Positions 34,635 to 50,640 of a stretch of DNA of 64,000 nt are shown piece after piece. The position numbers were made by a program, and so were the translations under genes. Positions within the stretch are counted from its first letter, which is position 1. The number at the start of each line of letters is the position of its first letter. Below the pieces are notes generated by a model, which saw only the letters and a program-made list of their open reading frames with translations, was not told the DNA's origin and did no database searches. Origin of the DNA: Bacteroidota bacterium (GTDB lineage Bacteria; Bacteroidota; Bacteroidia; Flavobacteriales_D; Crocinitomicaceae); contig JASBTZ010000008.1 of NCBI GenBank assembly GCA_030148165.1, positions 124,001-188,000 of the forward strand. The letters run 5' to 3'.

Positions 34635-36440
34635 TTAATTCTTGATCAGCTTGTATTTTGCTGTACTCGATCCGGAATCAATCTCCAGATAATAGAATCC
34701 ATCCGGTTGAGACGTAATATCTAGTTTCACAGATACATTTTGATCATCCGTATGAAGCGTATTGATCTCTTTACCATTAGCGTCAATCACTCGTAGCGTG
34801 TATGATTCGAGCGTGTTGTTTTTAAACTCGACGGTAAATAATCCTTCGCCCGGATTCGGATAAATTGTTAATCCTTCAATTGAACCGTATTCTTCGATAT
34901 TTGCACAAGATTCAACGGTGATAGAAGTGGAGTCCATACCGACGCATTCGGTTGCTGTATCAATGTATGTGTATACAACCCAGAACGTTCCGATACCACT
35001 TGCGTTAGGGTCGAAATTACCTCCTGATACGCCTGTTCCTGAATAAGTTCCATTTGCAGGTGTTCCACCCGGAAGAGCAACAGGATCATCATAGACGCAA
35101 ATCGTTGAGTCCGTGAAAGCACTTAATGAAACTGACGGAGCCGGATTGATAGTCACATCGAAAGATGAACTATCCATATTTCCAGACTGATCTGTTACGA
35201 TATACCATACTGTTGTTGTACCAACATTAAATGATGTACCACTGGCATCTCCACTTCCTGAACCGGTTGTTGCTCCGGTCATATTGTAACTTACCGTTTC
35301 ACCACCGCAGTTATCCCAGGTCGTAGGAGCGATTCCGTTAACAACAGGATCACATTGTGTTATGTTTGCAGGAGAAGTTACTGTTGGTGCGATCGAATCT
35401 GTAACGATCACATTAAACGAACAGAAAGCAGAATCTCCAAAGGCATTAATAACTGCGTAAGTTTCTGTAGTTGTACCTACCGGGAATGTTCCTCCAGTAC
35501 CAATCCCTGAAACAAAGGTAGTTGTCGTTCCACCACCATAGGTGATTTTAACCATACCATGACCTAAATTTACTCCACCTGTATTATTTTGGTTGGTACC
35601 ACCATTGAAAGAAGCGCCTCCACCTCCAACACCGCCACTTCCGACGCTATTAGAACCAGCACCACCACCAGAGTAGCCACCGCCACCGCCACCAACGACG
35701 TATCCGGAACCATTTCCACCTCCACCGAAGCCACCAATTCCAAATCCAACATTGGCACCAGCTCCACCATTAACAAAGGCATCTCCACCAGAATTTGCAG
35801 TCCAACCATCAGCGCCATCAGTTAGCAATCCACCTCCGGCACCTGAAGAGAATGAGCCACCGGCAGAACCGCCATTTCCGGCAGTACCGCCGGCACCACC
35901 ACCACCTGTTCCCATGCCTCCGGTTGTTCCAACCTGACCATGTTTATTTGGTGAATCAAGAGCTGCGGCTGAACCACCGCCACCACCAGCAACAATGAGT
36001 GGGTTATTAGACATGTCAACGACGAATGTACCGCCGCCTCCGCCATTACCACCAGTTGAATGATATTGCTGTCCTACTAGAATCTGAAGCGTTTGGCCTG
36101 GTGTCACTGTGAAGTCACCAATCATAATAGCACCAAGGCCCGCTGGCACCCCAGAACTTGTATTATTACTTCCTTGAGCCCCACGAGCTTCAATCGTTAC
36201 GGAGGTAACGCCTGCAGGAACTATCCAGCTGTCAATTGTTCCCGTATAATTGAATATGATCGAATCCAAGTCACAAGGATCATAACCCTGAGGGATTGTA
36301 TAACTCACCACCGCATTACACGTAGAGTCGGCATTCACATATATGTCTGCCGGACATGTAACCGTTGGACATTGAGCAAAAAGTGATCCGGTTGCCAGAA
36401 CACTTATTGCAATAAGTATATTTTGCGTAATATTTTTCAT
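34635..36440 (-). CDS. Glycine-rich secreted protein with HYR-like and T9SS type A domains
   Basis: A 601-residue exported protein. Signal peptide (1-22); a cysteine-bearing HYR-like start (CPTVTCPADIYVNADSTC); a jelly-roll-like strand region; a long glycine-rich tract (about 130-300, GGGGG clusters) as in glycine-rich secreted proteins; a second HYR-like module (DSIAPTVTSPANITQC ... VWYIVTDQSGNMDSS); and a C-terminal type A sorting domain (GLTIYPNPGEGLFTVEFKN to KYKLIKN, last ~80 residues). The sorting domain sends it through the type IX system to the cell surface. Likely role is adhesion or matrix; no enzyme domain is seen. It is second in an operon, 10 bases after the small protein gene. 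Confidence 0.88.
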   Translation of the reverse strand: MKNITQNILIAISVLATGSLFAQCPTVTCPADIYVNADSTCNAVVSYTIPQGYDPCDLDSIIFNYTGTIDSWIVPAGVTSVTIEARGAQGSNNTSSGVPAGLGAIMIGDFTVTPGQTLQILVGQQYHSTGGNGGGGGTFVVDMSNNPLIVAGGGGGSAAALDSPNKHGQVGTTGGMGTGGGGAGGTAGNGGSAGGSFSSGAGGGLLTDGADGWTANSGGDAFVNGGAGANVGFGIGGFGGGGNGSGYVVGGGGGGYSGGGAGSNSVGSGGVGGGGASFNGGTNQNNTGGVNLGHGMVKITYGGGTTTTFVSGIGTGGTFPVGTTTETYAVINAFGDSAFCSFNVIVTDSIAPTVTSPANITQCDPVVNGIAPTTWDNCGGETVSYNMTGATTGSGSGDASGTSFNVGTTTVWYIVTDQSGNMDSSSFDVTINPAPSVSLSAFTDSTICVYDDPVALPGGTPANGTYSGTGVSGGNFDPNASGIGTFWVVYTYIDTATECVGMDSTSITVESCANIEEYGSIEGLTIYPNPGEGLFTVEFKNNTLESYTLRVIDANGKEINTLHTDDQNVSVKLDITSQPDGFYYLEIDSGSSTAKYKLIKN

Positions 36441-37123: not shown

Positions 37124-37147
37124 CATCCCCGGTTCCATCCCCTCATA
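37124..37147 (+). repeat. Left direct repeat (candidate attL)
   Basis: CATCCCC-ggtt-CCATCCCCTCATA. It matches 48589-48612 at 20 of 24 positions, all mismatches being in the central four bases. It abuts the integrase promoter element. Confidence 0.6.
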
Positions 37148-37148
37148 T

Positions 37149-37156
37149 TATCTTTG
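37149..37156 (+). promoter_or_regulatory. -7 element for the integrase gene (TATCTTTG)
   Basis: TATCTTTG ends 11 bases before the integrase ATG and begins one base after the candidate att repeat, so integrase binding at the repeat could repress its own gene. Confidence 0.5.
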
Positions 37157-37167
37157 GGGGACAGATT

Positions 37168-38424
37168 ATGTCAGGATTAAAATTCTACATAAGAGACAAA
37201 AATGCCAGGGTTGATTCTTCAATTCAGATGGTGCTATACTATGATGGTTATCGCTTGAAAGTGTCAACGGGAATTAATGTGCCTCCTGCCTATTGGAATG
37301 CAAAAAAGCAACGGGCAAAAGTATTATTGGAATTTCCGGATGCAGTGATTATTAATGATGAGCTGGATCAAATGGAAGAAGCAATGAACTCATTACTTAG
37401 AAAATATCGTGATTTTGGATATTACCCCGTTCCGGCAACACTGAGAAAGGAGTTCCTTGCACTGGGTGGAAACCCATTGAAAGATCGCAGGGATAAAACA
37501 TTTTGGGACTACTTTGAAGAGTTTATTGTCTATAAGGAGAAACAACTAAGTGATATTCGTGATTACAATAACTCACTGCGTAAGCATTTGGTAAATGCAG
37601 AGAAAAAAATGGGTAGAGAGCATCGCTTTGATCTGATTGCGAACCCGGAGAGTGATTTTGCCGAAAACTGGAATCACTACTTGCTTTATGAAGCGATAAA
37701 TAGTGAAGGTAATCCGGGGCTAGCAAGAAACACTGCCGGGAAGATGAATAAATGTTTCAAGGTGTTTTTGAATTGGTGCTTTGATCGAAATATCATTCCT
37801 CGATTTAGTTTGAAGAAATTTCCGACGGTACATGAGGATGTGGATAAGGTGTATGTGACCGAGGAAGAACTGGAATTAATTACTGAAGTAGAGTTGGAAG
37901 ACGAATTGGAGCAAATTGTTCGGGATCTTTTCGTAATTGGATGCGAAACCGGTCTGCGTTTTTCCGATTTCATCCGAATTGATTCGAGAGATATTCGAAA
38001 TAATCAGATTCATTTCAGACCGAAAAAGACCAGGAAACAAGCGAATAACAAAGTAATTATACCAATTAGTGAGCGATTGGATGATACATTAAAGAAATAC
38101 GAATATAACCCACCCTCATTCAATGGTAAAAGAATTACGCAATTCAATACAACCATTCGCGAGGTATGCAGAAAAGCAGGTTTGACAACGGATATTGTCC
38201 GGTACAAACACAAAGGTGGAGTAGAAGTGAAGGAAGTTAAATTCAAGTTCGAGGAAATTTCATCTCATACATGCCGTCGGACGTTTTGTACACTCAAATT
38301 TTTAAAGGGAATGCCTGCCCAAGCCATCATGAAATTCAGTGGGCATCGATCGGAACGGAATTTTTTGAAATATCTGAAATTGGATGCGGAGTTGACGGCG
38401 AGTAAGTATGGGGAGTTTTTTTAA
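37168..38424 (+). CDS. Tyrosine site-specific recombinase (integrase)
   Basis: A 418-residue phage-type integrase of the Bacteroidota class. N-terminal arm-binding domain (KFYIRDKNARVDSSIQMVLY ... GINVPPAYWN), a SAM-like core-binding domain (about 110-220), and the catalytic domain with Arg in GCETGLRFSDFIRID, the HTCRRTF (H-x-x-R) box, GHRSE, and the nucleophilic Tyr in NFLKYLKL. All catalytic residues are present, so it should be active. It lies at the very edge of the island, next to a direct repeat, and drives into it. No excisionase is adjacent; a HTH protein at 49222 could serve. Confidence 0.95.
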   Translation: MSGLKFYIRDKNARVDSSIQMVLYYDGYRLKVSTGINVPPAYWNAKKQRAKVLLEFPDAVIINDELDQMEEAMNSLLRKYRDFGYYPVPATLRKEFLALGGNPLKDRRDKTFWDYFEEFIVYKEKQLSDIRDYNNSLRKHLVNAEKKMGREHRFDLIANPESDFAENWNHYLLYEAINSEGNPGLARNTAGKMNKCFKVFLNWCFDRNIIPRFSLKKFPTVHEDVDKVYVTEEELELITEVELEDELEQIVRDLFVIGCETGLRFSDFIRIDSRDIRNNQIHFRPKKTRKQANNKVIIPISERLDDTLKKYEYNPPSFNGKRITQFNTTIREVCRKAGLTTDIVRYKHKGGVEVKEVKFKFEEISSHTCRRTFCTLKFLKGMPAQAIMKFSGHRSERNFLKYLKLDAELTASKYGEFF

Positions 38425-38507
38425 AAATAATATTACCTAAGAGATTGTAGTGATCTTAATTATTCGTTCTACTTTTTATAAATAGAAATAGCCTAATACA
38501 TTTTTCT

Positions 38508-38515
38508 TAGATTTG
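38508..38515 (+). promoter_or_regulatory. -7 element for the defence operon (TAGATTTG)
   Basis: TAGATTTG lies 30 bases before the ATG of the DUF4007 gene; no clear -33 TTG. It is the only candidate promoter seen before the five-gene run. Confidence 0.4.
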
Positions 38516-38545
38516 ATAGGAAGTTGGACCTTAATACAATATTCG

Positions 38546-39415
38546 ATGCGCACAGACATAATTAAATATAATTTTTCAGGACATGAGACCTTTCATTGTA
38601 GAGGGTTTTGGTTGAAGAAGGGGTTTGACTATGCAAATAAACCCGACGCTGTTTTTAACGATTCAGCAGTTGTTGAGTTAGGTGTTGGTCGAAATATGGT
38701 TGGTTCTATCCGCTATTGGCTAAGAGCTTTTGGATTGTTTGATGGCAAAGATCAATTGAATGAACTCGCTCAAAAGATTTTCCAAGACAAAGGGTTAGAC
38801 CCATATTTAGAGGATGAAGGAACATTATGGCTTCTTCATTATTCACTCATCAGAAATAAGTCGAGAGCATCAATTTATCATTTGATCTTTGGTGAACTAA
38901 GGAAAATCAAACCAGAGTTTACGAAGCTTCATTTCAAAGCACTTGCGCTAGAAAAGGATAATTCTGCCAACGAGAACACAATTGACAAGGATTTTTCGGT
39001 CTTTATCCGGACTTATTTTTCGAAACCATCTAAGGATATCGAAGAGAGTTTTTCTGGATTATTGACTGAACTTGGTCTATTACATGATTTGGGTAGAAAA
39101 GATGAACTCAAAAATCCCGTATATAGAATAGAAAACAGAAGGCAGCTTGCAATACCAAAGGAGATTGTTCTATATACAATACTTGACAATGAAAGCTATG
39201 GAGACTCTATTAGTTTTAATTCTTTGTTTGAATCACATGAAAGTCCAGGCAATGTCTTCTGCTTCAACAAGGATAACCTTGAAACCATTTTAACTGAAAT
39301 AGAAAAGGATTTTCAAGGAGTTGTTTATAAAAATGATGCTGGAATCAAAGAGTTACAATTTAAAGGTGATAAACCTAACAAGTACAAAGTATTAGAGAAA
39401 TATTATGGCCAGTAA
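38546..39415 (+). CDS. DUF4007 protein, SspB-like DNA phosphorothioation component
   Basis: A 289-residue protein beginning with the DUF4007 hallmark KYNFSGHETFHCRGFWLKKGFDYA followed by VVELGVGRNMVGSIRYWLRAFGL. In the Ssp phosphorothioation system, SspB is (as I recall) a DUF4007-type protein that nicks one DNA strand to allow sulfur insertion. The frame opens at 38513, but residues from the ATG at 38546 (MRTDIIKYNFSG) match the family start. It overlaps the ATPase gene by 11 bases. The order DUF4007-ATPase-sulfurtransferase equals sspB-sspC-sspD. Confidence is high for DUF4007, moderate for the Ssp role. Confidence 0.82.
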   Translation: MRTDIIKYNFSGHETFHCRGFWLKKGFDYANKPDAVFNDSAVVELGVGRNMVGSIRYWLRAFGLFDGKDQLNELAQKIFQDKGLDPYLEDEGTLWLLHYSLIRNKSRASIYHLIFGELRKIKPEFTKLHFKALALEKDNSANENTIDKDFSVFIRTYFSKPSKDIEESFSGLLTELGLLHDLGRKDELKNPVYRIENRRQLAIPKEIVLYTILDNESYGDSISFNSLFESHESPGNVFCFNKDNLETILTEIEKDFQGVVYKNDAGIKELQFKGDKPNKYKVLEKYYGQ

Positions 39416-42400
39416 TTATAGTCCATCAGTAAATATTATTCGTGATGAAGAATCGAACCTAGATTACTTTGTAACTCCAAATGCACAAAAGTCTGTATTC
39501 ACAATTTTTAATGAATTTAAAAAAGGCATTCATTCGTTTACTCTGATTGGGTCTTATGGAACTGGCAAGTCTTCGTTTCTTTGGGCATTGGAGCAGACAC
39601 TCAAAGGGAAGAGAACTTTTTTTGATTTATCCCTTCCCAAGGAAATTCAATCTGTGGAGTTTATTAATGTGGTTGGTGTATATGAGTCCATGATTGACCA
39701 TTTTCATGAATTATTAAATGTCTCTAACTCCCATAGTGGAAATCAAGAGTTGTTTGATGCCTTATTTCAAAAGTATGAAGAAGCGGGAAAGGATGAAGGA
39801 CTCTTAGTCATCCAAATTGATGAGATGGGCAAGTTTCTAGAATATGCTGTCAAAAACGACCCTGAAAGAGAATTATACTTTATACAGCAGCTTGCAGAAT
39901 TTGCAAACACCCCGAAGCGAAATATATTATTCATTTCTACACTTCATCAAGCATTTGACACCTACGGTACTGAATTATCAGAGGTAGAAAGAAATGAATG
40001 GAGAAAAATAAAAGGTCGCTTGAAAGAGCTTCCATTTAATGAGCCCATTGAACAACTCTTGTTTTTAGCTGCAGAAAAGATTAATTCGGGTGAAGTTGAT
40101 AACAAGATTGTAAAAAATAGTCTATCCCTTGGTAAGCTTATTGTAGAGCATAAACTATTCAAAATAGGTCAAGAGTTCTTTGAATCTTCGGCAAACCAAT
40201 TATTTCCATTAGACCCAATTTCTGCTTACATCTTAACCTCATCTTTGCAGCGATATGGCCAAAATGAAAGATCGCTGTTTTCATTTTTATCAAAATTAGA
40301 GGAGCTTGAAAATAATAAGGCATTCGAGTATTTTTCATTGGAGAAAGTATATGATTACCTGTGGGGTGATTTTTACACCTTTATGTCCGCACGGAGTAAC
40401 CCAGATTATATCCAATGGGCGTCTATAAGGTCAGCTATAGAAAGAGTTGAAACAAGGGTTGAAGAAAATCAAGAAATATCAGTTGTCATTGTTAAATCAA
40501 TTGGACTGTTTGGTCTGTTTTCGAACAAAGGAGCTACGATCGACTCTAGGTTACTGACCAACTACCTCTCAACAGTGAAGCAGATAAAACAAGAAGTTAT
40601 AGAAAAAGCTCTATCAGAATTAACGAGGCTCCAAATAATCCGTTTTAATAAATTTAATAGCTCATATAAGTTATTTGAAGGAACCGATCTTGACATTGAA
40701 GGTGCTCTTTTGAAAGCTGAAAATCAAGTTGAAAATGATATTGATATTGTTTCTAAGCTAAAAGAGTCATTCGAATTTTCAGTTGTCACCGCAAAAGCTT
40801 TTTCGTATAAAACAGGAACACCTCGACTTTTTGAGTTTAGAATTACACAATCACCTATTGATGAGATTCCAAAAGATGAAATAGACGGATTTATCAATCT
40901 CCTTTTTAACGAAGATTTATCTCAAAAACAATTAAAACAGATATCAAAAGACCAAGAAAATGCAATAATCTACTGTTTATTTCAAAATACCAGTGACATT
41001 AAAAGCTCTTTGTTTGAGATTGAAAAGTCAACAAAGGTTTTGCAGAATATTGATAATGATGATTTGGTCGCGAGAAAGGAGCTAAAGAACATTATTGAGA
41101 GTCATAAATCTTTACTCAATCATTATGTTAAGGATGCTCTTTACACGGATAAGGTAATTTGGCTTTGGGGCGGACGAAAGGTTGAAATAAATTCATCCAA
41201 AAATCTTAATCAAGAACTGTCAAAAATATCTGAATATGTTTACTCTGGTACTCCAGAACTTAGGAATGAGCTGTTCAATAAACACAAAATTTCTTCGGCT
41301 ATTCATACAGCAAGGAAGAACCTATTCTTAGCAATGGCCGAACACTGGGATAAAAAGGATTTAAATTTTTCTGAATCTAAATTCCCTGCTGAGAAAACCA
41401 TTTATATATCGCTTCTTAAAGATACTGGAATACATAAAAAGGTAGAAAATAACTATGAGCTGGTTTTACCTTCTGGGAATTCTTCGGTAAGTCAAATATG
41501 GGAGGCTTCAGAAGTTTTTTTACAGAGCTGTAGAGGTGAAAGGAAGAGACTTACTGAATTAAACAAGATTCTTGAAAATAAACCATATAAGCTAAAAAAA
41601 GGCTTAGTTGATTTTTGGGTTCCAATCTTCCTCTTTATTAAACGAGGAGATTATGCATTATATGGAGATGAAGGCTTCATCCCGAAAATTGATGAAACTA
41701 GATTACACCTCATATCAAGACAACCGAAAGAATATGAAATTAAATCTTTTGAGCTGTCGGATGCACGAATCAAACTGTTCAATAAGTACAGGGAATTATT
41801 GAATTTGGATAGTCAAGATACAATGACCGTCCAATCTTTTATTGAATGTATCGGACCAATCATTGTGCTCTATAAAAACCTCCCTGAATATTCGAAAAAT
41901 ACCAAGCGTTTATCAAAAGAGGCTATTAATTTACGCACAGCAATCACCAAATCCGAAGATCCAGAAAAGGTTTTCTTTGAAGACTTTCCCGAAGCATTGG
42001 AGTTTAGAAGTATTGATGTCTCAACCTCACAAGATACCTATGAACAGTACATCTTAAAGTTCCAAGGAACAATTTCGGAGATTAGAGGCGCTTACCCTAG
42101 TTTAATCGATCGCATTGAAAAGTTTATAACAGATGAGATTATTGGTGCTGATGTTCGGTTTTCTGAATATAAAGGTGTTTTACAAAAGCGATACAGAAAA
42201 ATCAAAGATCATAAGCTGTTAAAACATCAGAAAACCTTTTTATTACGGCTTAACTCACCAATTGATGATAGAAATAGTTGGATTGAATCTATTTCACATG
42301 CGGTTTTAAGTAAACGCCTAGCAGATATACAGGATCCAGAGGAAGATATTTTAAAGGATAAGCTTCAACACCTATTTCAAGAACTTGATAATCTCCTTGA

Positions 42401-42617
42401 AATCGAAGAGATATCAGGAGAAAAGGATGAGGCATTTAAATTAGATATAACCACAAAAGGTGGTAGAATGCAGGGGTTAGTTATAAAACTGAATTCATCT
42501 AAAGAAAAAGAATTGGAACAAATCATGGCTAAGCTAGACAAAGAATTGAAAGGGGATAGAAACCTTAAAATGATGGCTCTAGCCAAGTTGTTAAAAAAAG
42601 AATTAGATAATGAGTAA
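39405..42617 (+). CDS. Large P-loop ATPase, SspC-like
   Basis: A 1070-residue protein with an N-terminal STAND/AAA-like ATPase: Walker A GSYGTGKSS (49-57), Walker B LLVIQIDEMGKF (133-144) and a sensor-like NILFISTLHQAFD. The rest is helical, with winged-helix-like segments and coiled coils and no recognisable nuclease. It overlaps both neighbours (11 bases with DUF4007, 8 with the sulfurtransferase), as expected for a complex made in fixed ratio. By gene order it corresponds to SspC, the ATPase that works with SspB and SspD in DNA backbone sulfur modification. Direct homology cannot be confirmed without a search. Confidence 0.75.
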   Translation: MASNYSPSVNIIRDEESNLDYFVTPNAQKSVFTIFNEFKKGIHSFTLIGSYGTGKSSFLWALEQTLKGKRTFFDLSLPKEIQSVEFINVVGVYESMIDHFHELLNVSNSHSGNQELFDALFQKYEEAGKDEGLLVIQIDEMGKFLEYAVKNDPERELYFIQQLAEFANTPKRNILFISTLHQAFDTYGTELSEVERNEWRKIKGRLKELPFNEPIEQLLFLAAEKINSGEVDNKIVKNSLSLGKLIVEHKLFKIGQEFFESSANQLFPLDPISAYILTSSLQRYGQNERSLFSFLSKLEELENNKAFEYFSLEKVYDYLWGDFYTFMSARSNPDYIQWASIRSAIERVETRVEENQEISVVIVKSIGLFGLFSNKGATIDSRLLTNYLSTVKQIKQEVIEKALSELTRLQIIRFNKFNSSYKLFEGTDLDIEGALLKAENQVENDIDIVSKLKESFEFSVVTAKAFSYKTGTPRLFEFRITQSPIDEIPKDEIDGFINLLFNEDLSQKQLKQISKDQENAIIYCLFQNTSDIKSSLFEIEKSTKVLQNIDNDDLVARKELKNIIESHKSLLNHYVKDALYTDKVIWLWGGRKVEINSSKNLNQELSKISEYVYSGTPELRNELFNKHKISSAIHTARKNLFLAMAEHWDKKDLNFSESKFPAEKTIYISLLKDTGIHKKVENNYELVLPSGNSSVSQIWEASEVFLQSCRGERKRLTELNKILENKPYKLKKGLVDFWVPIFLFIKRGDYALYGDEGFIPKIDETRLHLISRQPKEYEIKSFELSDARIKLFNKYRELLNLDSQDTMTVQSFIECIGPIIVLYKNLPEYSKNTKRLSKEAINLRTAITKSEDPEKVFFEDFPEALEFRSIDVSTSQDTYEQYILKFQGTISEIRGAYPSLIDRIEKFITDEIIGADVRFSEYKGVLQKRYRKIKDHKLLKHQKTFLLRLNSPIDDRNSWIESISHAVLSKRLADIQDPEEDILKDKLQHLFQELDNLLEIEEISGEKDEAFKLDITTKGGRMQGLVIKLNSSKEKELEQIMAKLDKELKGDRNLKMMALAKLLKKELDNE

Positions 42618-43749
42618 AGTAAGACATGTGCTAGGAATATCGGGAGGTAAGGATAGTGCTGCTATGGCGATCTACCTCCGTGACAAGTACCCAGAATTAG
42701 AGTTTGATTATTACTGCTGTGATACAGGAAAAGAACTTGATGAAACATATCAACTTATTGATAATTTGGAATCCTATCTTGGTAAGAAAATCAAAAGGTT
42801 AATTGCCCACGAAGCAGAAAAAAGTAATGAAAATCCGTTTGATTATTTCTACAAGGTATTCAAAGGATACCTTCCTTCACCTCAAGCGAGATGGTGCACC
42901 AATATGATGAAATTACAGCCATTTGAGCGATACGTAGGGACGGCTCCGACGGTTTCCTATGTTGGTATTCGAGGTGATGAAAGCAGAGAGGGTTATGTGT
43001 CAAAAAAGGAAAACATTCAGTCTATTTTCCCTTTTCGAAGAAATATTTGGAGTGAAGATGTATGGAAAAAGTTCTTTGCCAATGAAAATGAAGAAAAGGC
43101 TTTAGACATCTTTAGTACTGTTAACGGAGCGTCTGATTTGGATAGGTTTAAAAATGCACTTTCCATTGAAATTCCAAAGGACTTTAATGAACGAGTTTTA
43201 GCACAAAAGAACTTACACAAGAAGATTGACTCTAGTTTGGATCTTTCAATTGCTGGTATGAACAAGGTCATTTTCGAATTCCTAAAGGATACAAATTATT
43301 CTCTCTCATTAGAAGATGATTTTCCCCTATTAGAAAATGAAGATGTATTAGTTAGGGATGACATTTTTAAAATATTGGAAGAAAGTGGTGTTGGAGTGCC
43401 AGGGTACTACAACAAAATTGAATATGAAGTGGATGGTAAAAAAGGCGAATATGCAAGGAGTAGGTCGGGTTGCTTCTTTTGCTTCTTCCAACAAAAAATT
43501 GAATGGGTATGGCTTTATGAGCAACACCCGGATTTATTCGAACAAGCTAAGCACTATGAAAACCTTGATGAGTTTTTTACTTGGAACCAGCATGAGTCAT
43601 TGGATGAACTAACAGAACCAAGCAGAATTGAGCAAATTAAAAGAGAGCATCTTAATCGAACTGGTCGTGAGAAATCAAAAGGCTCGAAGTTCTTGCTTGA
43701 CATTTTAGACGACACTGAAGAAGAAAGTTGTATTTCTTGCTTTGTATAA
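42610..43749 (+). CDS. PAPS-reductase-like sulfurtransferase, SspD/DndC-like
   Basis: A 379-residue ATP-pyrophosphatase. PP-loop GISGGKDSAAMAIYL (SGGKDS at 11-16), ARWCTNMMKLQPFE with Cys96, and GIRGDESREGY are typical of the phosphoadenosine-phosphosulfate-reductase-like enzymes that activate DNA for sulfur insertion (DndC, SspD). Cysteine pairs occur at GCFFC (288, 291) and in the last residues, SCISCFV (374, 377); with Cys96 they could hold an Fe-S cluster or sulfur. A DNA sulfurtransferase fits better than an assimilatory PAPS reductase, because of the long insert and the SspB/SspC neighbours. No cysteine desulfurase is encoded nearby, so a host IscS/SufS may supply sulfur. Confidence 0.85.
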   Translation: MSKVRHVLGISGGKDSAAMAIYLRDKYPELEFDYYCCDTGKELDETYQLIDNLESYLGKKIKRLIAHEAEKSNENPFDYFYKVFKGYLPSPQARWCTNMMKLQPFERYVGTAPTVSYVGIRGDESREGYVSKKENIQSIFPFRRNIWSEDVWKKFFANENEEKALDIFSTVNGASDLDRFKNALSIEIPKDFNERVLAQKNLHKKIDSSLDLSIAGMNKVIFEFLKDTNYSLSLEDDFPLLENEDVLVRDDIFKILEESGVGVPGYYNKIEYEVDGKKGEYARSRSGCFFCFFQQKIEWVWLYEQHPDLFEQAKHYENLDEFFTWNQHESLDELTEPSRIEQIKREHLNRTGREKSKGSKFLLDILDDTEEESCISCFV

Positions 43750-43758
43750 AAAATATTA

Positions 43759-44865
43759 ATGGAATATAGAATTGAAATTTGGAGCATTAAAGATCTGGTA
43801 GAGAAGTATAATGATAGTGTCCTATCATTAAATCCACCATATCAAAGAAGATTTATTTGGTCTATTCGTGATCAACAGACACTAATAGATTCCATTCTCA
43901 GAGGTTATGCAATTCCTAACATATTTTTACATGAATATGAACCAAATAAGTATGAAATGGTTGATGGCCAACAAAGAACAAGAACAATTTTGGGCTTTAT
44001 TAAAGGTGAATTTAAAACCTCGGATGAGAAACAATTTACAGAAAAGGAATTTGGTAAAAAACTGAATAAGTATTTGATTCCAGTGACAATTATTGAGAAA
44101 ATTGATGCTGGAGAGACAATAGAGGAATTTTATGCACTAGTTAATAAATCTGGGATTCACTTGAATAGACCAGAATTAAAGAAAGCTGAACATTTTGACA
44201 CAAAGTTCTTAAAACTCGCAACCGAATTAGCCGACTCGAAAGAATTCAAAAGCCTTGGATTGTTTACCGAACGTTCATCAAAAAGGATGACAGATTTAGA
44301 TTTTGTGTCAGAGTTGATAGCGCAAATAAAAGTTGGAATCACAGACAAAAAGCTTAAAGTTGACCAGTTGTTTGAAAAAGATATTGATAATAAGGAGTTT
44401 AAAGAGCTTAAGACTAATTTCCAAAAGATTATGAAGGTCTTCACAGCCTTCAACAAAATAAAGGAAATAAAATACACTAGATACAAACAACGTAACGATT
44501 TCTATACATTATTCGGATTTGTTAGCAACAATCTAGATTTACCTCAAAAAGACCTTAATTATATTTATGAATTATTGGTTGAATTCAATAATGATATTAT
44601 CCCCTCGAATGAAGAGTGTGAGCCATTCCAATTATACGCATTCCACTGTATAAGTCAATCAAATTCTAAATCAGCACGCGAGGAAAGACTTAAAATATTA
44701 GAGAATCTTTTTATGAACTCTAGCACAAAGCCTAATTCAACCCAAAAAAAAGTGTTGAAATATCTTAAGTTAACAGCGGATGACATGGTTGAAGTATCTA
44801 AGTTCCTAATGTTTGATTTAAAGTCAGTAAAAAAGTCAAAATTAGATTTACAATCAGCCAAATAG
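43759..44865 (+). CDS. DUF262 protein lacking an HNH domain
   Basis: A 368-residue protein with the ParB/Srx-like DUF262 domain: LNPPYQRRFIWSIRDQQTLIDSIL (24-47) and the nucleotide-binding VDGQQRTRTI (68-77). SspE and GmrSD effectors begin with this domain but carry a C-terminal DUF1524 HNH nuclease. Here the rest (about 200-368) is helical, and I see no H-x-x-P/HNH motif. It may sense modified DNA or nucleotide without cutting, passing the signal to another protein. It lies 10 bases after the sulfurtransferase gene and overlaps the kinase GTG by one base. Confidence 0.85.
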   Translation: MEYRIEIWSIKDLVEKYNDSVLSLNPPYQRRFIWSIRDQQTLIDSILRGYAIPNIFLHEYEPNKYEMVDGQQRTRTILGFIKGEFKTSDEKQFTEKEFGKKLNKYLIPVTIIEKIDAGETIEEFYALVNKSGIHLNRPELKKAEHFDTKFLKLATELADSKEFKSLGLFTERSSKRMTDLDFVSELIAQIKVGITDKKLKVDQLFEKDIDNKEFKELKTNFQKIMKVFTAFNKIKEIKYTRYKQRNDFYTLFGFVSNNLDLPQKDLNYIYELLVEFNNDIIPSNEECEPFQLYAFHCISQSNSKSAREERLKILENLFMNSSTKPNSTQKKVLKYLKLTADDMVEVSKFLMFDLKSVKKSKLDLQSAK

Positions 44866-45776
44866 TGAATTTCAAATTTGGAAATATCAATCTCTCAAAA
44901 GATGATTACAAAAACATTATTCGTTATGAAAATGTAGATTATCTTATTAAGCCTTTGAGTGAGAACTACAATGGCAGTAAAGGCGGTAATTCTAACGTTT
45001 TTATACTAATTGACCCGGAGGATGAGTCTGAATCAATAATTAAGTTTTGTAAATATGACCTTAATAAACCAAACCCATTTACAATAAAAAGAATCGCTAG
45101 GTTTAATAGAGAAATTGAAGCATTAGAAGCAGCAAAAGAAGAAGGGTTTAATAACATTATCGATATTATTTTTGATGGATATCATACCATTGGGAATAAA
45201 AAATTCCATTACTACGTGATGGAAAAGGCAGATTATGATTTAACCGAATACCTAAACTCTGAAGAAGTTAGTAATCAACAACGTTTTCTATTGTGTTTAG
45301 ATATTCTTCAAGGAATTAAAGAACTCCATAGCATCGACATTTATCATCGTGACATTAAACCCGATAATATTCTTTTTGTAAATGGAGTATGGAAAATCGG
45401 AGATTTAGGTTTAATTGATTACAGGGAATCAGATTTTGAAATTAAAGAAGAAGGAGAGAGGATAGGACCTATTGGTTGGTTATCGCCAGAAGCAATGAAC
45501 AAATATCTCAATGAAGGTGAAAATAGGATAAACAGATATGAACTAGATTGTCTTTTAGATTCTGCGTCTGACGTTTTTCAGCTAGGAAAGGTGTTTTGGT
45601 ATATTTTTCAAGGAAATATACCAATTGGTCAGATTAGGCGAGGTGACTTTAAAATAGCTGATAAGGTGTTATATAAGGTTTTCACCAAGATGATTAGACA
45701 TTCTAAAAGAGAGCGATATAGTCTCAATCAAATAGAAAGTCAACTTAGTTCTAGGATAGAATTTTATGGTGTTTAA
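44865..45776 (+). CDS. Ser/Thr protein kinase (Hanks type) in defence operon
   Basis: A 303-residue soluble kinase. Catalytic elements are intact: ATP-binding Lys60 in SIIKFCKY, helix-C Glu (NREIE, 81-85), the catalytic loop HRDIKPDN (161-168), GDLG in place of DFG (179-182) and SPEAM in place of APE. No membrane segment or extracellular domain is present. GTG start overlaps the stop of the DUF262 gene, so it is translated with it. In phage defence, kinases such as Stk2 cause abortive infection; here a kinase sits where a nuclease effector would be expected. That role is inference. Confidence 0.9.
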   Translation: MNFKFGNINLSKDDYKNIIRYENVDYLIKPLSENYNGSKGGNSNVFILIDPEDESESIIKFCKYDLNKPNPFTIKRIARFNREIEALEAAKEEGFNNIIDIIFDGYHTIGNKKFHYYVMEKADYDLTEYLNSEEVSNQQRFLLCLDILQGIKELHSIDIYHRDIKPDNILFVNGVWKIGDLGLIDYRESDFEIKEEGERIGPIGWLSPEAMNKYLNEGENRINRYELDCLLDSASDVFQLGKVFWYIFQGNIPIGQIRRGDFKIADKVLYKVFTKMIRHSKRERYSLNQIESQLSSRIEFYGV

Positions 45777-45795
45777 TAATTTCACATTTTTATCC

Positions 45796-48261
45796 TTATT
45801 CCGCTATACTCTGCATCATTTCTTCCATTCCTCCAAAATTGAGAATGAAAGTTGAATAGTAGTGATCAAACACATCTTTCAGGTAGGTTCCCACATCTAC
45901 AATTTCTAAATCTTCTTTACCCTCCATTTTCTGCTGGATTTGATAACCACGATTTTTGGTGATTGTGTATAGGAAAAGTGTATGAAAGTACACAGAAGTA
46001 TAGTACTTCCTGTTAGCTAGCTCTATTTGCTCGGCATTTGGGTTTCTGTACTTCGATTTGAAGTTCATGAGAACGGTACTTTCCATGTTAACGAAAATTC
46101 TCTTCAAGCTATCACCCTCTGCCTCTGGTATCATTACTGTATCATAGCCTATATCAAGTCCAGTTGCTTCTTCTACATCCTCCCAGTTAACAGACTTGTC
46201 ATCTCTTCCTTCGTTATCCTTGTAGGTGAACACCAAAGGGGGTAGGCCTAAAGGTTCATCATCTACCTCCGGCTTCGGTACTTTTTGCTTTGGTTTTTCT
46301 GGTTCAACTATCTGAACCATAAAGATTTCATCAAATTCCCCTCCGGGAGCTGTAAGGGACACTTTCATTTCTATTGCGTCACCAACCTTCAGTTTATCTT
46401 TTGGACTTAAAGTTAGTTTGATTGTTCCTTCGTGTGGACTTGATCTCACTACATTGAACAACTCAGTGGGTTCTTTTGGTGTACCCGGAGCAGTGCCACC
46501 GTCTGTTTCATTTTGTTTAACATTCAGAATAGCAATCTTGAACTCTCCCGGCTCATCAACTCGGTCGAAATAATCATTTTCAACATCAGTAGAAAACCTA
46601 ATCGTTCGTTCACCGTTTAAAGGAATTTTTGAAACAGGGGTATCTCCCTTCTTATTATGATCAATCTTAAATTGACTTGGAAACCTTTGAGGTTGAAATG
46701 GTACATCTTCAAAGTCTTCTTTTGGCTTAACAGGCTTATTTATCTTTGGTTTATCTTGCTTAATATCTAGTTTGAAAGTCTGATTGATCAGTTTCATTAG
46801 ATCAGAATCAAGCGGCATGTTTTTAGTAAAGTTCTTTAAGAGCTGTTGTGTATTTGAGGTTGTATCTATATCTACGGCTTGTTTACGCCTTTTCTCTATA
46901 AGAGCCAGTCTTCCATCCTTATTGCTCAATTTATTCCCTAAATACCATCTCAGTTGTTGGGTTTCCTCCCCATCCTTGAGCCTGTCTCTTGATGCCATAA
47001 AAAGCTCCTTCCTGAATTCGTAGTTCATTTCGGTACAATCAACATGAATAAGTAGGTGACTCTTAAGCAAGTTCAGTTTAAGTGACCTTGTAATAAATTC
47101 GGAGGTATAATGACCATGAACTTGTCCATTTAACGAGAACATGACACTCATGCTATTTTTAAAATACCTGTCCTGTATAATCTGTTTAGTTCTTTTAAGG
47201 TCATAGTCTTTCACCTTCGTTTTAAAAACGAAACAAGACACCTTCATTTTACCGAACAACTCATCCTCAAAGTTTTCGGAAAACTTGTCTTCTAAATATT
47301 CTTCTTCCTCCCGAAACAGCCTTCTTTTTAATCCGTAGAGGTCGGTAACTAAAACTTTATTGTTAGGATACCTTTCTTCAGTATCCTTTGTAAGAACAGG
47401 AAGAGCAGGGCTAAATAGATATTCGTTTATACTTTGATTTAAATCTTGTGCAAATGCTGAATATCCCTTCGGAAACTGATAGGAATAAAGTTTTATAATT
47501 GTTCCAGTTTTGAATCTTCTGTTTTCCAATCCAAGATCTAAATCATCAATTGGAAAAGATGGAATCTGGTCGTCAATCATTAGGTATTCATACCATGTTT
47601 CTTTGGCTTTATCTTCTTCTGTTTTAGGGTGTTCTCGTACGAGAGTAAAACCAAATTCACCATCATTTGTGTATCGCTTTGAAGCAATTAGCTGATATCG
47701 CTTCTTCCCGCAAAACACAACTGCACCACTTCCCCCCATGTTGTATTTACCCTGCACAAAGTGAATATCATTCTTATTTCCACGTAGTAAAGAAAGAAAG
47801 GTGTTCTCAAATTTCTCCGGGTGCTGTCCTTCGCCATTATCATAAATAATCACCGAGGTGGGATATTGATTCTTTTGATTCCTTGGTCCTTTCCCATCAG
47901 CTATAACCTGGATTTCTTCAGCTTGAGCTCTTTTCATTTGTTGTAAATCCCAGTTATTATGTGGAAAAAAGGTTTCAATGGCATCGTCCATAGATTTGGG
48001 TGCGGTATCTGATTTTGGATCAATCCCTTTAGTGTAACATTCTTTGGTTAAAATGGCATCAATTGAGTTTGTCACCTTTTCTATCAAAGCAGCGATCGGG
48101 TTAGCTTGTTGGTTTTTTACAACACCATAATTACTCTTGTTATCTCCTAGTGGCTTCCAGTTAGAATTATCAAAAATGGACGAGTTTTTGTCTATTAAGG
48201 CTGCTAATTCAGATTCATCTTTAGCGTCGAACAGTTTGAAAAAGAGCTCTTTGTTCTCCAT
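45796..48261 (-). CDS. GHKL (HSP90/MutL-like) ATPase of the island
   Basis: An 821-residue protein with an N-terminal GHKL ATPase: N-box ALIEKVTNSIDAIL (Glu61, Asn65, Asp68), G1 box IIYDNGEGQHPEKF (Asp141-Gly145) and glycine-rich GKYNMGGSGAVVF (171-183). A middle domain to ~470 includes LFMASRDRLKDGEE. A Pro/Lys-rich linker is followed by two or three beta-sandwich segments (about 570-700) and a C-terminal helical domain. It resembles large stand-alone ATP-binding proteins of defence loci and not a sensor histidine kinase, as no phospho-acceptor His domain is found. Its stop faces the kinase stop with a 19-base gap. Confidence 0.82.
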   Translation of the reverse strand: MENKELFFKLFDAKDESELAALIDKNSSIFDNSNWKPLGDNKSNYGVVKNQQANPIAALIEKVTNSIDAILTKECYTKGIDPKSDTAPKSMDDAIETFFPHNNWDLQQMKRAQAEEIQVIADGKGPRNQKNQYPTSVIIYDNGEGQHPEKFENTFLSLLRGNKNDIHFVQGKYNMGGSGAVVFCGKKRYQLIASKRYTNDGEFGFTLVREHPKTEEDKAKETWYEYLMIDDQIPSFPIDDLDLGLENRRFKTGTIIKLYSYQFPKGYSAFAQDLNQSINEYLFSPALPVLTKDTEERYPNNKVLVTDLYGLKRRLFREEEEYLEDKFSENFEDELFGKMKVSCFVFKTKVKDYDLKRTKQIIQDRYFKNSMSVMFSLNGQVHGHYTSEFITRSLKLNLLKSHLLIHVDCTEMNYEFRKELFMASRDRLKDGEETQQLRWYLGNKLSNKDGRLALIEKRRKQAVDIDTTSNTQQLLKNFTKNMPLDSDLMKLINQTFKLDIKQDKPKINKPVKPKEDFEDVPFQPQRFPSQFKIDHNKKGDTPVSKIPLNGERTIRFSTDVENDYFDRVDEPGEFKIAILNVKQNETDGGTAPGTPKEPTELFNVVRSSPHEGTIKLTLSPKDKLKVGDAIEMKVSLTAPGGEFDEIFMVQIVEPEKPKQKVPKPEVDDEPLGLPPLVFTYKDNEGRDDKSVNWEDVEEATGLDIGYDTVMIPEAEGDSLKRIFVNMESTVLMNFKSKYRNPNAEQIELANRKYYTSVYFHTLFLYTITKNRGYQIQQKMEGKEDLEIVDVGTYLKDVFDHYYSTFILNFGGMEEMMQSIAE

Positions 48262-48267
48262 GGGGTA

Positions 48268-48498
48268 TTAAAATTTGAACTGATTTTTCTTTGATTTGTT
48301 AAGTTCACTTTCAAATGCAGATTCGGTTTGAAATAACTTCTCTTTTATTGCTTTAATCATTTTCTTTACATCTTCTTCTGAGTACTCGTAATTGTTCTTA
48401 TTACTACATTTTGAAAGGCTGTCAAGATAATCAAGAATATTTTGCGTTCTGCGAGCTGCAACTTTTTCAAAGCGCTGTCTTCTAGTAGATTTTTTCAT
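48268..48498 (-). CDS. Small charged helical protein paired with the GHKL ATPase
   Basis: A 76-residue basic/acidic helical protein (RRQRFEKVAARRTQNILDYLDSLSKCSNKNNYEYSEEDVKKMIKAIKEKLFQ). The pattern R-x-x-R-x-N-I-L-x-x-L ... C-SNKNNYEYSEEDV is, from memory, seen in small proteins accompanying various DNA-defence or methylase loci; I cannot name the family. It starts the minus-strand pair, ending 6 bases before the GHKL ATPase start, so the two are likely co-expressed and may interact. Confidence 0.7.
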   Translation of the reverse strand: MKKSTRRQRFEKVAARRTQNILDYLDSLSKCSNKNNYEYSEEDVKKMIKAIKEKLFQTESAFESELNKSKKNQFKF

Positions 48499-48588
48499 TA
48501 ATAACTATATATTCATAAATGTAATGAAATATACAGTAATATGTATACATAAGTTAAATAAAGTTTAAACATGAGTTCGAAATAACCC

Positions 48589-48612
48589 CATCCCCCCAAC
48601 CATCCCCTCATA
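48589..48612 (+). repeat. Right direct repeat (candidate attR)
   Basis: CATCCCC-ccaa-CCATCCCCTCATA; same spacing as 37124-37147. It lies 90 bases past the start of the last island gene. Confidence 0.6.
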
Positions 48613-48833: not shown

Positions 48834-49220
48834 TTATTTGTATTTAAATATTTGTACATATTTTTTATCATCCGAAAGTCTAAATGCTAAGTCAAGTATG
48901 TGTTTATATCGATTGCCATCTTTACCGGTTAAACCTTTTGTTGCAACTTCAGGATCGAATCCAAGTTTAGTCAGCTTACCGATATAAACCCAATTATCTT
49001 TATCAACATTCTTGATTCCTATCTGAAGGGCCCTATATGAGATTATCATCTCATCAAACCAAGGCTTAAATTTCTCGTTTCGCTTGTCACGCTTGGCATT
49101 ATTCACTTTGGACTTATGGCTAGGATCGAAGTACTTCTGATTCCTTCGTCCATAAAACTCGGCTCCACAATCGCATTCGCAGATCTTATAGTGCGGACCT
49201 CCTAATTGAATCGGTTCCAT
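48834..49220 (-). CDS. Zinc-ribbon-type mobile-element protein
   Basis: A 128-residue basic protein. The N-terminus has a Cys cluster (YKICECDCGAEFYGRRNQKYF) followed by a basic stretch (SHKSKVNNAKRDKRNEKFK). This resembles the small GRRNQ-type zinc-finger proteins of Bacteroidota elements, although the second Cys pair is replaced (DPSH). The C-terminal half is helical (GIKNVDKDNWVYIGKLTKLGFDPEV). It probably binds nucleic acid. It is one base downstream of the HTH gene, forming an operon with it. Confidence 0.6.
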   Translation of the reverse strand: MEPIQLGGPHYKICECDCGAEFYGRRNQKYFDPSHKSKVNNAKRDKRNEKFKPWFDEMIISYRALQIGIKNVDKDNWVYIGKLTKLGFDPEVATKGLTGKDGNRYKHILDLAFRLSDDKKYVQIFKYK

Positions 49221-49221
49221 T

Positions 49222-49554
49222 TTACTTTGTTTTTCTGTTGTTTAACATTTCCATGATTTCATTTTTGAGATAATAAACCCTTCCAGCCATTTTTATCGGT
49301 TTGGGTAAGAGGCCGGCTCGTTTCCACTTGTCAAGAGAGACCGTACTTACGCCGAACATCTTGGCAAGGTCCTGACGACCAATGAGTGACTGCTTCATAT
49401 CATCATCATGTGCCGATGGTTGACCAAAATCAAAATGTTCCTTAAACAGCTTCTCAAGTTCAATTTTCACTTGATTGCTGATTGCATCCTGAAGTTCCTG
49501 GACGGTGAGGGTTACAATATGTCTGTCATCATCTGAGTTTTGACTTAATTCCAT
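49222..49554 (-). CDS. Helix-turn-helix protein (excisionase/MerR-like)
   Basis: A 110-residue protein with a C-terminal HTH_17 domain: LIGRQDLAKMFGVSTVSLDKWKRAGLLPKPIKMAGRVYYLKNEIMEML. Such proteins bind DNA as recombination directionality factors or repressors in integrative elements. The first 50 residues are a helical leader (LTVQELQDAISNQVKIELEKLFKEHFD). The gene lies outside the right repeat of the defence island, so it may belong to a second or larger element. It leads the three-gene cluster with the zinc-ribbon and membrane proteins. Confidence 0.85.
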   Translation of the reverse strand: MELSQNSDDDRHIVTLTVQELQDAISNQVKIELEKLFKEHFDFGQPSAHDDDMKQSLIGRQDLAKMFGVSTVSLDKWKRAGLLPKPIKMAGRVYYLKNEIMEMLNNRKTK

Positions 49555-49656: not shown

Positions 49657-50640
49657 TTATGAAAAAGGGTAGTATCGTGGATTTGCTCCCGCCATTTTCT
49701 TGCTCACATTCTCCGGCAAGTCATTCTTAAATGATTCGAAATTCATTACAAGAAAACTACTATACTCCATCTGACGTCCGGCATATGACTCACCGTCAAC
49801 ATTAAGATAAAAATGATAAACGAATTTCATTAATGCTTGTTTGGAAACGTTAGCTGTTAAAAGTTTTCTCTTCTTTTTAGGGAACCCCTGGAAGTTACTC
49901 GCAATTAAAGTCTCGATATTTTGCTCATTAAGTATTAATTCACCTTTGCGATTTAAGGTGTTCAATTGCATAAAATACTTTCGGATTTCAACATTTGATA
50001 ATTCAGTCTTGATTCTGTCATCGAAAACAGTCGATTTTTTTTCAGTTGAATCTGTCAATTTCGCCATGGAACTCCCGACGAATGTATCAATAAAATCTTC
50101 TATAAATGGTACATTTTCCTGATTGTAAGTCAAATTAGGAGGATCGCCTAACTGGAGAGGTAAGTCGGGTTCGTTCTCATTAACAAATTTTCTTTGCTCC
50201 CTGATCCAATTTGAAATTGCCGTTTTTTGGTCAATGCAATCATGACATATTAGCGTCTTTATAATGTCATTCAGCACATAGTGTTCAGTTTCATTGACAA
50301 ATTGATTGTTGGGCTTATTGGATTTCTTCATCAACTCGTCTAGTACCAAAGGAATTTCGAAAGGTTCAATAAGTGACAATTTAATTCCTAACCAATAAGT
50401 AAAATCTGGAGAATTCGTACTTACGTAGAACACTTGCTTTTTTGCAATATCCGTCCATTCTTTTTGATACCCTTTAATTCTTGCGTAGTTGATTACCGCA
50501 AAGCGAATTCCGTTGAGATATTCCTCTTTTGGAATATTTGGTTTGAAAGAATCATTATTATATACCTTATTGAGTAGATCTCTATAGCATTCGAGTGAGC
50601 TGATGTCATATGGGCCGATTTTAAAAAAGAGGGGAGTCAT
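49657..50640 (-). CDS. Hypothetical element-associated protein (327 residues)
   Basis: A soluble, helix-rich protein without membrane segments or a recognised catalytic motif. Visible features: LLNKVYNNDSFKPNIPKEEYLNGIRFAVINYARIKGY at the start, a Cys-His pair (TLICHDCIDQ), and a basic C-terminal third (FPKKKRKLLTANVSKQALMKFVYHFYLN). The last part could contact DNA. Its place beside a HTH protein suggests a regulatory or maintenance protein of a mobile element. I do not recognise the family. Confidence 0.6.
   Translation of the reverse strand: MTPLFFKIGPYDISSLECYRDLLNKVYNNDSFKPNIPKEEYLNGIRFAVINYARIKGYQKEWTDIAKKQVFYVSTNSPDFTYWLGIKLSLIEPFEIPLVLDELMKKSNKPNNQFVNETEHYVLNDIIKTLICHDCIDQKTAISNWIREQRKFVNENEPDLPLQLGDPPNLTYNQENVPFIEDFIDTFVGSSMAKLTDSTEKKSTVFDDRIKTELSNVEIRKYFMQLNTLNRKGELILNEQNIETLIASNFQGFPKKKRKLLTANVSKQALMKFVYHFYLNVDGESYAGRQMEYSSFLVMNFESFKNDLPENVSKKMAGANPRYYPFS

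Follow-up and report, generated by a model that had tools for sequence, protein, structure and literature searches.

A candidate phosphorothioation-based defence locus in which SspBCD is joined to a GHKL ATPase and a kinase cassette

In the described Ssp systems of DNA phosphorothioation, the sspB, sspC and sspD genes are found either with sspE (PMC9646914, PMC13251355) or with a second module of several genes, sspFGH (PMC8092258). In the available part of the latter paper, both sspE and sspFGH are absent from 2,211 of 2,678 sspBCD loci, and unidentified restriction partners are raised as a possibility. The locus described here lies in a 64,000-nucleotide stretch of a 3.5-Mb Crocinitomicaceae genome (positions 124001-188000 of contig 18), which we call the window and to which coordinates refer unless another locus is named. 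It consists of sspB, sspC and sspD, followed by the genes of a DUF262-only protein and a Ser/Thr kinase and, convergent with these, the gene of an unnamed GHKL ATPase with a small open reading frame (ORF) upstream of it. GHKL together with SspBCD is the recurring unit, and the DUF262-kinase pair is one of about nine cassettes which occupy the slot between SspD and the GHKL. Hosts recorded for the GHKL relatives include Bacteroidota, Poribacteria, Alphaproteobacteria and one metagenome bin labelled Gammaproteobacteria. SspBCD-GHKL is a testable candidate for the missing restriction partners, and the many partnerless sspBCD loci leave a gap that the GHKL type may partly fill.

The likeness of the window to SspABCD-SspE lies in the sspB-C-D genes and in a DUF262 protein at the position of SspE (PMC9646914, PMC13251355); an SspE-type gene fills this position in three loci of the GHKL type (the scanned member, in L056, matches SspE at 3.2e-220). 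The window differs in having no DUF1524/HNH nuclease. Reader and effector would be separate genes, the effector would be a kinase, and a GHKL is added. The DUF262 protein (368 amino acids, aa) was not assigned to SspE: it keeps the N-terminal YQ/DGQQR residues but has no GmrSD_C and does not match the SspE model. SspABCD-SspFGH resembles the window in that SspBCD is accompanied by a second module of several genes. As far as the available text goes, SspF carries a Walker A motif and the end of SspH is FtsK-like (PMC8092258), and no window protein has been matched to either. Homologues of SspFGH or DndFGH are absent from the matches listed for ten window proteins at E≤0.01, the presence of such models in the profile library being unchecked. 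BREX type 4 shares a DUF4007 protein, an SspC-like ATPase and a PAPS reductase with the window, according to the accessible part of PMC12839542; it was set aside, since neither PglZ nor BrxL is found among the ten scanned window proteins.

The best PADLOC match of the kinase is mad6 (5e-25). This protein belongs to the methylation-associated defence (MADS), which reportedly joins a writer of DNA marks to a protein kinase. The length of the mad6 model is 659 positions, compared with 303 aa in the window kinase, and the element has no methyltransferase. None of mad2-5, mad7 and mad8 is among the matches listed (for the kinase, the best 25 of 33). Membership in MADS was rejected, as only mad6 and mad1 (a helix-turn-helix (HTH) protein outside the element, 5.5e-5) appear in them. 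The DUF262 protein is closest to NsnA of Menshen (NsnABC) at 7.5e-29. The Menshen DUF262 gene is paired with a predicted OLD nuclease in the part of PMC10952713 available; the window has no OLD/TOPRIM nuclease and does have phosphorothioation genes. With an NsnC match of 0.0015 only (the small ORF) and no NsnB among the matches listed, Menshen was rejected as well. The GHKL recalls the paraMORC/MORC proteins, which are likewise GHKL ATPases beside the DNA-modification genes of restriction-modification systems (PMC2292703). A phosphorothioation context is not described in the accessible portion of that paper, and the window element has no superfamily 2 (SF2) helicase. By sequence, the link is a weak HATPase_c_3 match.

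No paper that describes a GHKL or a kinase as a partner of SspBCD is among the matches listed from the open PMC literature, subscription journals and bioRxiv being outside the scope, and a published account of the origins of dnd contains neither a GHKL nor a kinase. An earlier, sequence-only reading of the window had pointed to no described system with this set of genes, and no named system of the same composition was found.

The SspBCD-GHKL unit

The GHKL ATPase (45796-48261, minus strand; 821 aa) is the proposed core component and constant partner of SspBCD. A scan of the GTDB species genomes yielded 269 relatives, of which the best 80 were analysed. The ssp genes lie near the GHKL in 70 of these, at most about 6.5 kb away, and in nine of the other ten the contig extends for less than 2.1 kb on one side. 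The 80 loci and ten more from a sample of 395 Bacteroidota genomes make 90 loci. The GHKL is ssp-linked in 75 of the 90, or in 74 of 89 distinct contigs, L013 and L070 being the same.

A GHKL is present at E≤1e-10 in 11 of the 395 genomes. All six genomes in which its identity is at least 55% (our own included) have SspC adjoining, compared with 22 of 395 genomes which have SspC at all. No ssp gene is present in the stretch examined for the other five (24-41% identity); DNA methyltransferases adjoin the GHKL in three of them (L018, L021, L022). Plasmid GHKLs of 46-56% identity from Hymenobacter, Ensifer and Devosia, all annotated as 'hypothetical protein', have SspBCD nearby in three cases out of three, and no ssp genes were found with the two of five weaker plasmid matches that were examined. 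We regard the GHKL, with high confidence, as a functional partner of SspBCD.

The match of the GHKL to Pfam HATPase_c_3 (0.0011) falls short of the Pfam cut-off, and there is no PADLOC or NCBIfam match at E≤0.01. The ATP-site motifs E61xxxN65, D141xGxG and G171...GGxG are invariant in 34 aligned relatives. The structure model is middling, with a predicted local distance difference test (pLDDT) score of 73.5 and a predicted template modelling (pTM) score of 0.53. Its top fold matches are the topoisomerase IV ATPase (3.6e-9) and TRAP1 (1.9e-7), with about 450 alignment columns, and Ig-like domains match more weakly. The weak Pfam match, the invariant motifs and the fold matches together form the basis of the GHKL assignment. 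Judging by the motif positions in the model, the ATPase part would be N-terminal with an Ig-like part behind it, and the fold alignment, at this pLDDT, suggests an S5-type part. Searches of the PDB by sequence gave nothing useful for either the GHKL or the DUF262 protein.

Several individual loci may be mentioned here. The alphaproteobacterial plasmids of Ensifer and Devosia (L156, L157) carry class V aminotransferase, DUF4007, SspC-type and PAPS-reductase genes with the GHKL and a sensor-histidine-kinase-like protein, near plasmid replication genes. L017 (9517-15398) has a short SspC and a short GHKL, and no SspD was detected there; this system may be decaying. In L018 (5015-15205), the GHKL (41% identity) and an ORF of the 76-aa type stand with a C5 methyltransferase, a MutH-type protein, a metallophosphatase and a MORC-type ATPase, which indicates that the pair formed by the GHKL and the 76-aa ORF also occurs with methylation-based systems.

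Other possible partners are seen at SspC loci without this GHKL, where ten further neighbours were scanned. Ten of these 16 loci (L136-L151) have another MORC/GHKL-type ATPase in the examined stretch; with the six loci that carry this GHKL, ATPases of the GHKL type are near 16 of the 22 SspC genes in the sample. An SMC-like AAA ATPase and an SF2 helicase stand together in two SspBCD loci that lack this GHKL, L136 and L145, with a PLD-like domain in L145, and a third, L143, has a weak SMC-like match. This SMC-like ATPase set (L136, L143, L145) is possibly another set of Ssp partners. L139 has a GmrSD_N protein and a NERD helicase.

The slot and the DUF262-kinase cassette

The counts given here for the slot are among the 75 ssp-linked loci and overlap, and most cassette families are annotated from one scanned member. 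A DUF262 protein is present in the slot of 25 loci: with the kinase in 13, with a SIR2 protein in eight, with a HEPN protein in two, with an HNH-like C-terminus that matches REase_II models in L069, and with no recognised companion in L096. DndB occupies the slot in 19 loci, in 15 cases accompanied by a member of a 173-aa family of unrecognised kind. A MORC-type ATPase with a GIY-YIG protein is found in 11, and other MORC-type sets in six and three. The remaining types are a set with no recognised domain (six), the SspE-type gene (three) and a DndB-like protein of 775 aa (three). In L073 the GHKL gene follows SspD after 35 bases, with no recognised slot gene, and the next protein has no Pfam match.

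The SIR2 family always accompanies DUF262 (eight loci; none without it in the 90). The member scanned (L085) matches ThsA at 6.6e-34 and LmuA at 1.7e-24. A plain TTNYD motif is present in five of the eight proteins, the pattern being unmatched in L057, L081 and L103. HEPN is matched at 3.7e-19 in L064, of which L097 has a homologue with 51% identity, and RNxxxH is present in both. The slot is likely the position of an effector. A 975-aa family is inserted near the GHKL in the ssp loci L060, L046 and L101; the scanned member, in L060, is a STAND-type NTPase and might be an extra sensor.

Exchange of the cassettes can be followed on a quick GHKL tree (LG+G4, 74 rows), from which L070 and L062 (GHKL piece too short) were excluded. 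Sixty-three rows were labelled with nine slot types by a priority rule (L081, with SIR2 and DndB, as SIR2; L068 as MORC-GIY), and the change counts omit the 11 rows without a label. The slot changes at least 33 times over the 63 rows, compared with a mean of 43.0 and a minimum of 38 in 200 shuffles of the labels, indicating some inheritance and much swapping. The SspC tree gives 35 changes over 61 rows. For the kinase state, with 14 rows, 11 changes are required, compared with a mean of 12.9 and a minimum of 10 in the shuffles. Loyalty of the slot to lineage was rejected on these counts, the kinase state carrying no clear lineage signal. Close GHKLs of Aquimarina have different slots, with DndB in L091, a MORC-type set in L095 and DUF262 plus HEPN in L097. 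Among close Hymenobacter GHKLs, L074 and L079 have DUF262 plus kinase, and the nearby L094 has the SspE-type gene.

In the window, the seven ORFs at 38546-48498, checked at their coordinates, are open, each with one terminal stop. SspB (38546-39415, plus strand; 289 aa) matches the PADLOC profile at 1e-96 and Pfam DUF4007 at 1.4e-73, and is by family the DNA-binding and nicking subunit of phosphorothioation. SspC (39405-42617, plus; 1070 aa) is a P-loop ATPase with the Walker A motif GSYGTGKS at residue 49 (PADLOC SspC, E=0, 1293.5 bits). SspD (42610-43749, plus; 379 aa) is a PAPS-reductase-like sulfurtransferase with SGGKDS at residue 11 and cysteines at 288/291 and 374/377 (PADLOC SspD 2.4e-92; PAPS_reduct 1.9e-10). 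The first two genes overlap by 11 bases, and sspC and sspD by eight. The sequence-only reading had recognised sspB-sspC-sspD from this order and these overlaps, and the PADLOC scan of the window proteins bears out the family assignments. No cysteine desulfurase was seen in the element. Homologues exist in the genome, the best (E 1.2e-58) at C18:51919-53025, and a class V aminotransferase of the cysteine desulfurase type is present in 23 of the 75 ssp-linked loci.

A gap of nine bases separates sspD from the DUF262 gene (43759-44865, plus), whose last base overlaps the kinase gene (44865-45776, plus; GTG start). Nineteen bases lie between the latter and the GHKL gene on the convergent side, and six between the GHKL gene and the 76-aa ORF (48268-48498, minus). 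The DUF262 protein is an NTPase of the ParB-like, SspE/GmrS N-terminal type and a predicted reader of the marks. It matches Pfam GmrSD_N at 9.8e-21 and, as had been claimed, stands in place of an SspE nuclease, with no match to DUF1524 (GmrSD_C). Its model has a pLDDT of 87.6, and the top two PDB fold matches are BrxU (E 9.8e-4) and SspE 6jiv (E 4e-3), at low TM-scores by query of 0.28 and 0.26. PxYQR and DGQQR are present in the window protein and kept in 22 aligned; outside the alignment, L016 has PFQR, and the HEPN-linked L064 and L097 have DGRQR. In the available parts of PMC9646914 and PMC13251355, Y30, Q31 and DGQQR of StSspE and the P61/Y63/Q64 patch of EcSspE, of which Y63 was mutated, are tied to phosphorothioate (PT) sensing and GTP hydrolysis. 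These motifs in the window protein allow PT reading without proving it. According to the accessible text of PMC11662687, the PT-sensing DndI has a DUF262+HNH plan, and DUF262 and DndB belong to one ParB-like superfamily, which makes a reader (DUF262 or DndB) plus a separate actor a natural frame for the slot.

The kinase is complete, as the earlier reading held: Pkinase is matched at 2.5e-20, and K60, H161-R-D-x-K-x-D-N168, D180-L-G and S207-P-E are invariant in 12 aligned proteins (the L042 row ends early). Kinases outside the alignment read HRDLKPEN in L014 and HRDIKSDN in L016. The kinase (E≤1e-20) and the DUF262 protein (E≤1e-75) are confined to the same three of the 395 Bacteroidota genomes, each with SspBCD and the GHKL. 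DUF262, kinase, SspBCD and GHKL occur together in 13 of the 75 ssp-linked loci besides the window, and the order SspB-C-D-DUF262-kinase, convergent with the GHKL, is kept in all 13, with insertions in four. The earlier reading had treated all seven genes as one set, with the 76-aa protein as a partner of the 821-residue GHKL. Both of these ORFs are present and other genomes keep the set together, but no set is fixed, and a fixed system of seven genes was rejected: the 76-aa ORF is present in only two of the 75 other loci, compared with the 13 that have the cassette, and the recurring part is GHKL plus SspBCD. This rare ORF is known from the window, L056, L065, L018 and L021.

Proposed mechanism and alternatives

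The following course of events is proposed. SspBCD, as judged from their families, together with a cysteine desulfurase encoded elsewhere, would put PT marks on the host DNA. The DUF262 protein, which would correspond to the PT-sensing NTPase half of SspE without the nuclease half, would then read these marks. Instead of nicking DNA, it would release a separate effector, here the Ser/Thr kinase; relatives have a SIR2 NADase-like protein, a HEPN RNase-like protein or a whole SspE in the place of the kinase. The kinase, the predicted exchangeable effector, would halt the infected cell or the phage through protein phosphorylation. The GHKL is probably a DNA clamp of the MutL, topoisomerase or paraMORC type, which would distinguish marked DNA from unmarked or incoming DNA and hand the decision to whichever effector is installed. 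A kinase in place of DNA cutting, as the earlier reading had suggested, fits the position of the slot, since the slot elsewhere holds a ThsA-like SIR2 protein, HEPN or SspE (one member scanned per family). The argument for the kinase as an effector is positional, because it stands beside the same type of reader with which relatives carry families that are toxic in other systems. The DUF262-kinase pair is probably a weapon against viruses. We give the full reading, a mobile phosphorothioation-based SspBCD-GHKL defence locus with a swap-in effector and a chain from marking through reading and kinase to the GHKL switch, a probability of about 0.5.

A number of observations weigh against this reading. 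Phosphorothioation, phage defence and kinase action at the locus are predictions from the genes. Sixteen of the 22 SspC-positive genomes among the 395 are without this GHKL. L113, with ample flanks and no ssp gene, is the one true exception among the best 80 relatives, and in the IMG/VR viral contig L164 (6229-11433) a GHKL of 46% identity has DndB and a D12-class adenine methyltransferase as neighbours, and the 15.7 kb examined contain no ssp gene. The tree distances of GHKL and SspC correlate weakly (Spearman rho 0.134, 68 shared rows, permutation p 0.003), so that the GHKL need not contact SspC and the parts seem to exchange all round; strong co-evolution was rejected, this value being too weak for claiming a direct complex. 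The DUF262 frame of L014 (genome G188; 12016-12888) has an internal stop in the match, next to the kinase with HRDLKPEN, and this kinase locus may therefore not work and may be decaying. The best PADLOC match of the window DUF262 protein is NsnA rather than SspE, and PxYQR and DGQQR are, to our knowledge, generic to DUF262 proteins, so that PT reading by this protein rests on analogy. Finally, the slot families f22/f28/f39, f26/f27, f36 and f7 have no recognised domain.

It could instead be the GHKL itself that restricts, by clamping or compacting unmarked DNA and so blocking phage replication without cutting, with the DUF262-kinase pair as a fail-safe. A constant GHKL beside a slot that swaps would agree with this, as would L073, where the GHKL comes directly after SspD, and the pairing with DNA methyltransferases in three of the five distant loci. 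We nevertheless consider it unlikely, given the SspBCD loci that have no such GHKL, the restriction of phage by SspBCD with SspE reported in the available parts of PMC9646914 and PMC13251355, and the fact that the GHKL showed no recognisable domain for DNA binding or compaction. A role of the kinase as regulator, not toxin, is less likely still. The kinase would then phosphorylate SspC, DUF262 or the GHKL, or counter a phage protein, and restriction would be left to the GHKL or to an unlinked nuclease. It never occurs without DUF262 in the 90 loci and so may act on that partner, and the PADLOC and Pfam scans assigned none of the seven proteins to a nuclease family; against this, SIR2 and HEPN proteins, which are effectors in other systems and have the expected motifs in most members read, occupy the same position next to DUF262. 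We find it hardly credible that the genes are independent defence genes sharing one mobile element with no joint function. The low rho and the coming and going of the 76-aa ORF and the integrase would be expected of such genes, but not the ssp genes near 70 of the best 80 GHKL relatives, the confinement of the kinase and close DUF262 to three SspBCD+GHKL genomes, or the gene order kept in the 13 other kinase loci.

A wider and more tentative extension of the preferred reading, in which SspBCD-GHKL acts with a swap-in effector, is that the GHKL family is a general coupler of a DNA self-mark (phosphorothioate, or methylation in distant relatives) to plug-in effectors, the window holding a phosphorothioate-gated kinase. 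A bacterium could then replace a nuclease by a kinase, an NADase or an RNase and keep its mark as it is, and immunity would act through protein phosphorylation governed by the sulfur state of DNA. If the preferred reading is correct, SspBCD-GHKL would offer a clear example from nature of a single self/non-self mark leading to different outputs, namely nicking, NAD loss, RNA cleavage and phosphorylation. The near-matched Hymenobacter and Aquimarina loci differ in their effector cassette and can be used for comparison.

The probable mobile element and neighbouring genes

The genes probably belong to one integrative element of 11.5 kb (37124-48612), as indicated by an integrase and a repeat pair. 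The earlier reading had placed the island at 38546-48498. The genes are as it described them, but the element begins further to the left, with the integrase inside the repeat pair. The integrase is a tyrosine recombinase of 418 aa (37168-38424, plus strand), matching phrog_1 integrase at 1.4e-29 and an NCBIfam XerA-type model at 5.7e-12, under the model cut-off. The repeat search found an imperfect direct repeat of 24 nt. Its left copy (37124-37147), a probable attachment-site copy, ends 20 bases before the integrase, and the right copy (48589-48612), the probable right end of the element, starts 90 bases past the 76-aa ORF. The 13-nt core shared by the copies occurs exactly twice in the 3.5-Mb genome, both times at the ends of the element. 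The same pattern read backwards, as a control, occurs once genome-wide; a single copy of the core would thus carry little weight, and what matters is where the two copies lie. Two matches to the repeat pattern were found in none of 100 shuffles, an after-the-fact test, as the pattern was drawn up after both copies were known. The G+C content is 34.6% across 38501-48500, compared with 39.3% window-wide, and no tRNA was found in a scan of the window. Carriage by phages was rejected: there is no match in 50,697 phage records, and neither of two IMG/VR relatives has ssp genes in the examined stretch.

Just beyond the right repeat, an excisionase/HTH-like protein (49222-49554, minus strand; phrog_66, 9.9e-10) is flanked by two ORFs without matches (48834-49220 and 49657-50640, minus); the trio might be the leftover of a second mobile element. 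On the other side, at 34635-36440 (minus strand), a glycine-rich repeat protein of 601 aa is encoded, the C-terminal segment of which resembles, as judged by eye only, a type IX secretion tail.

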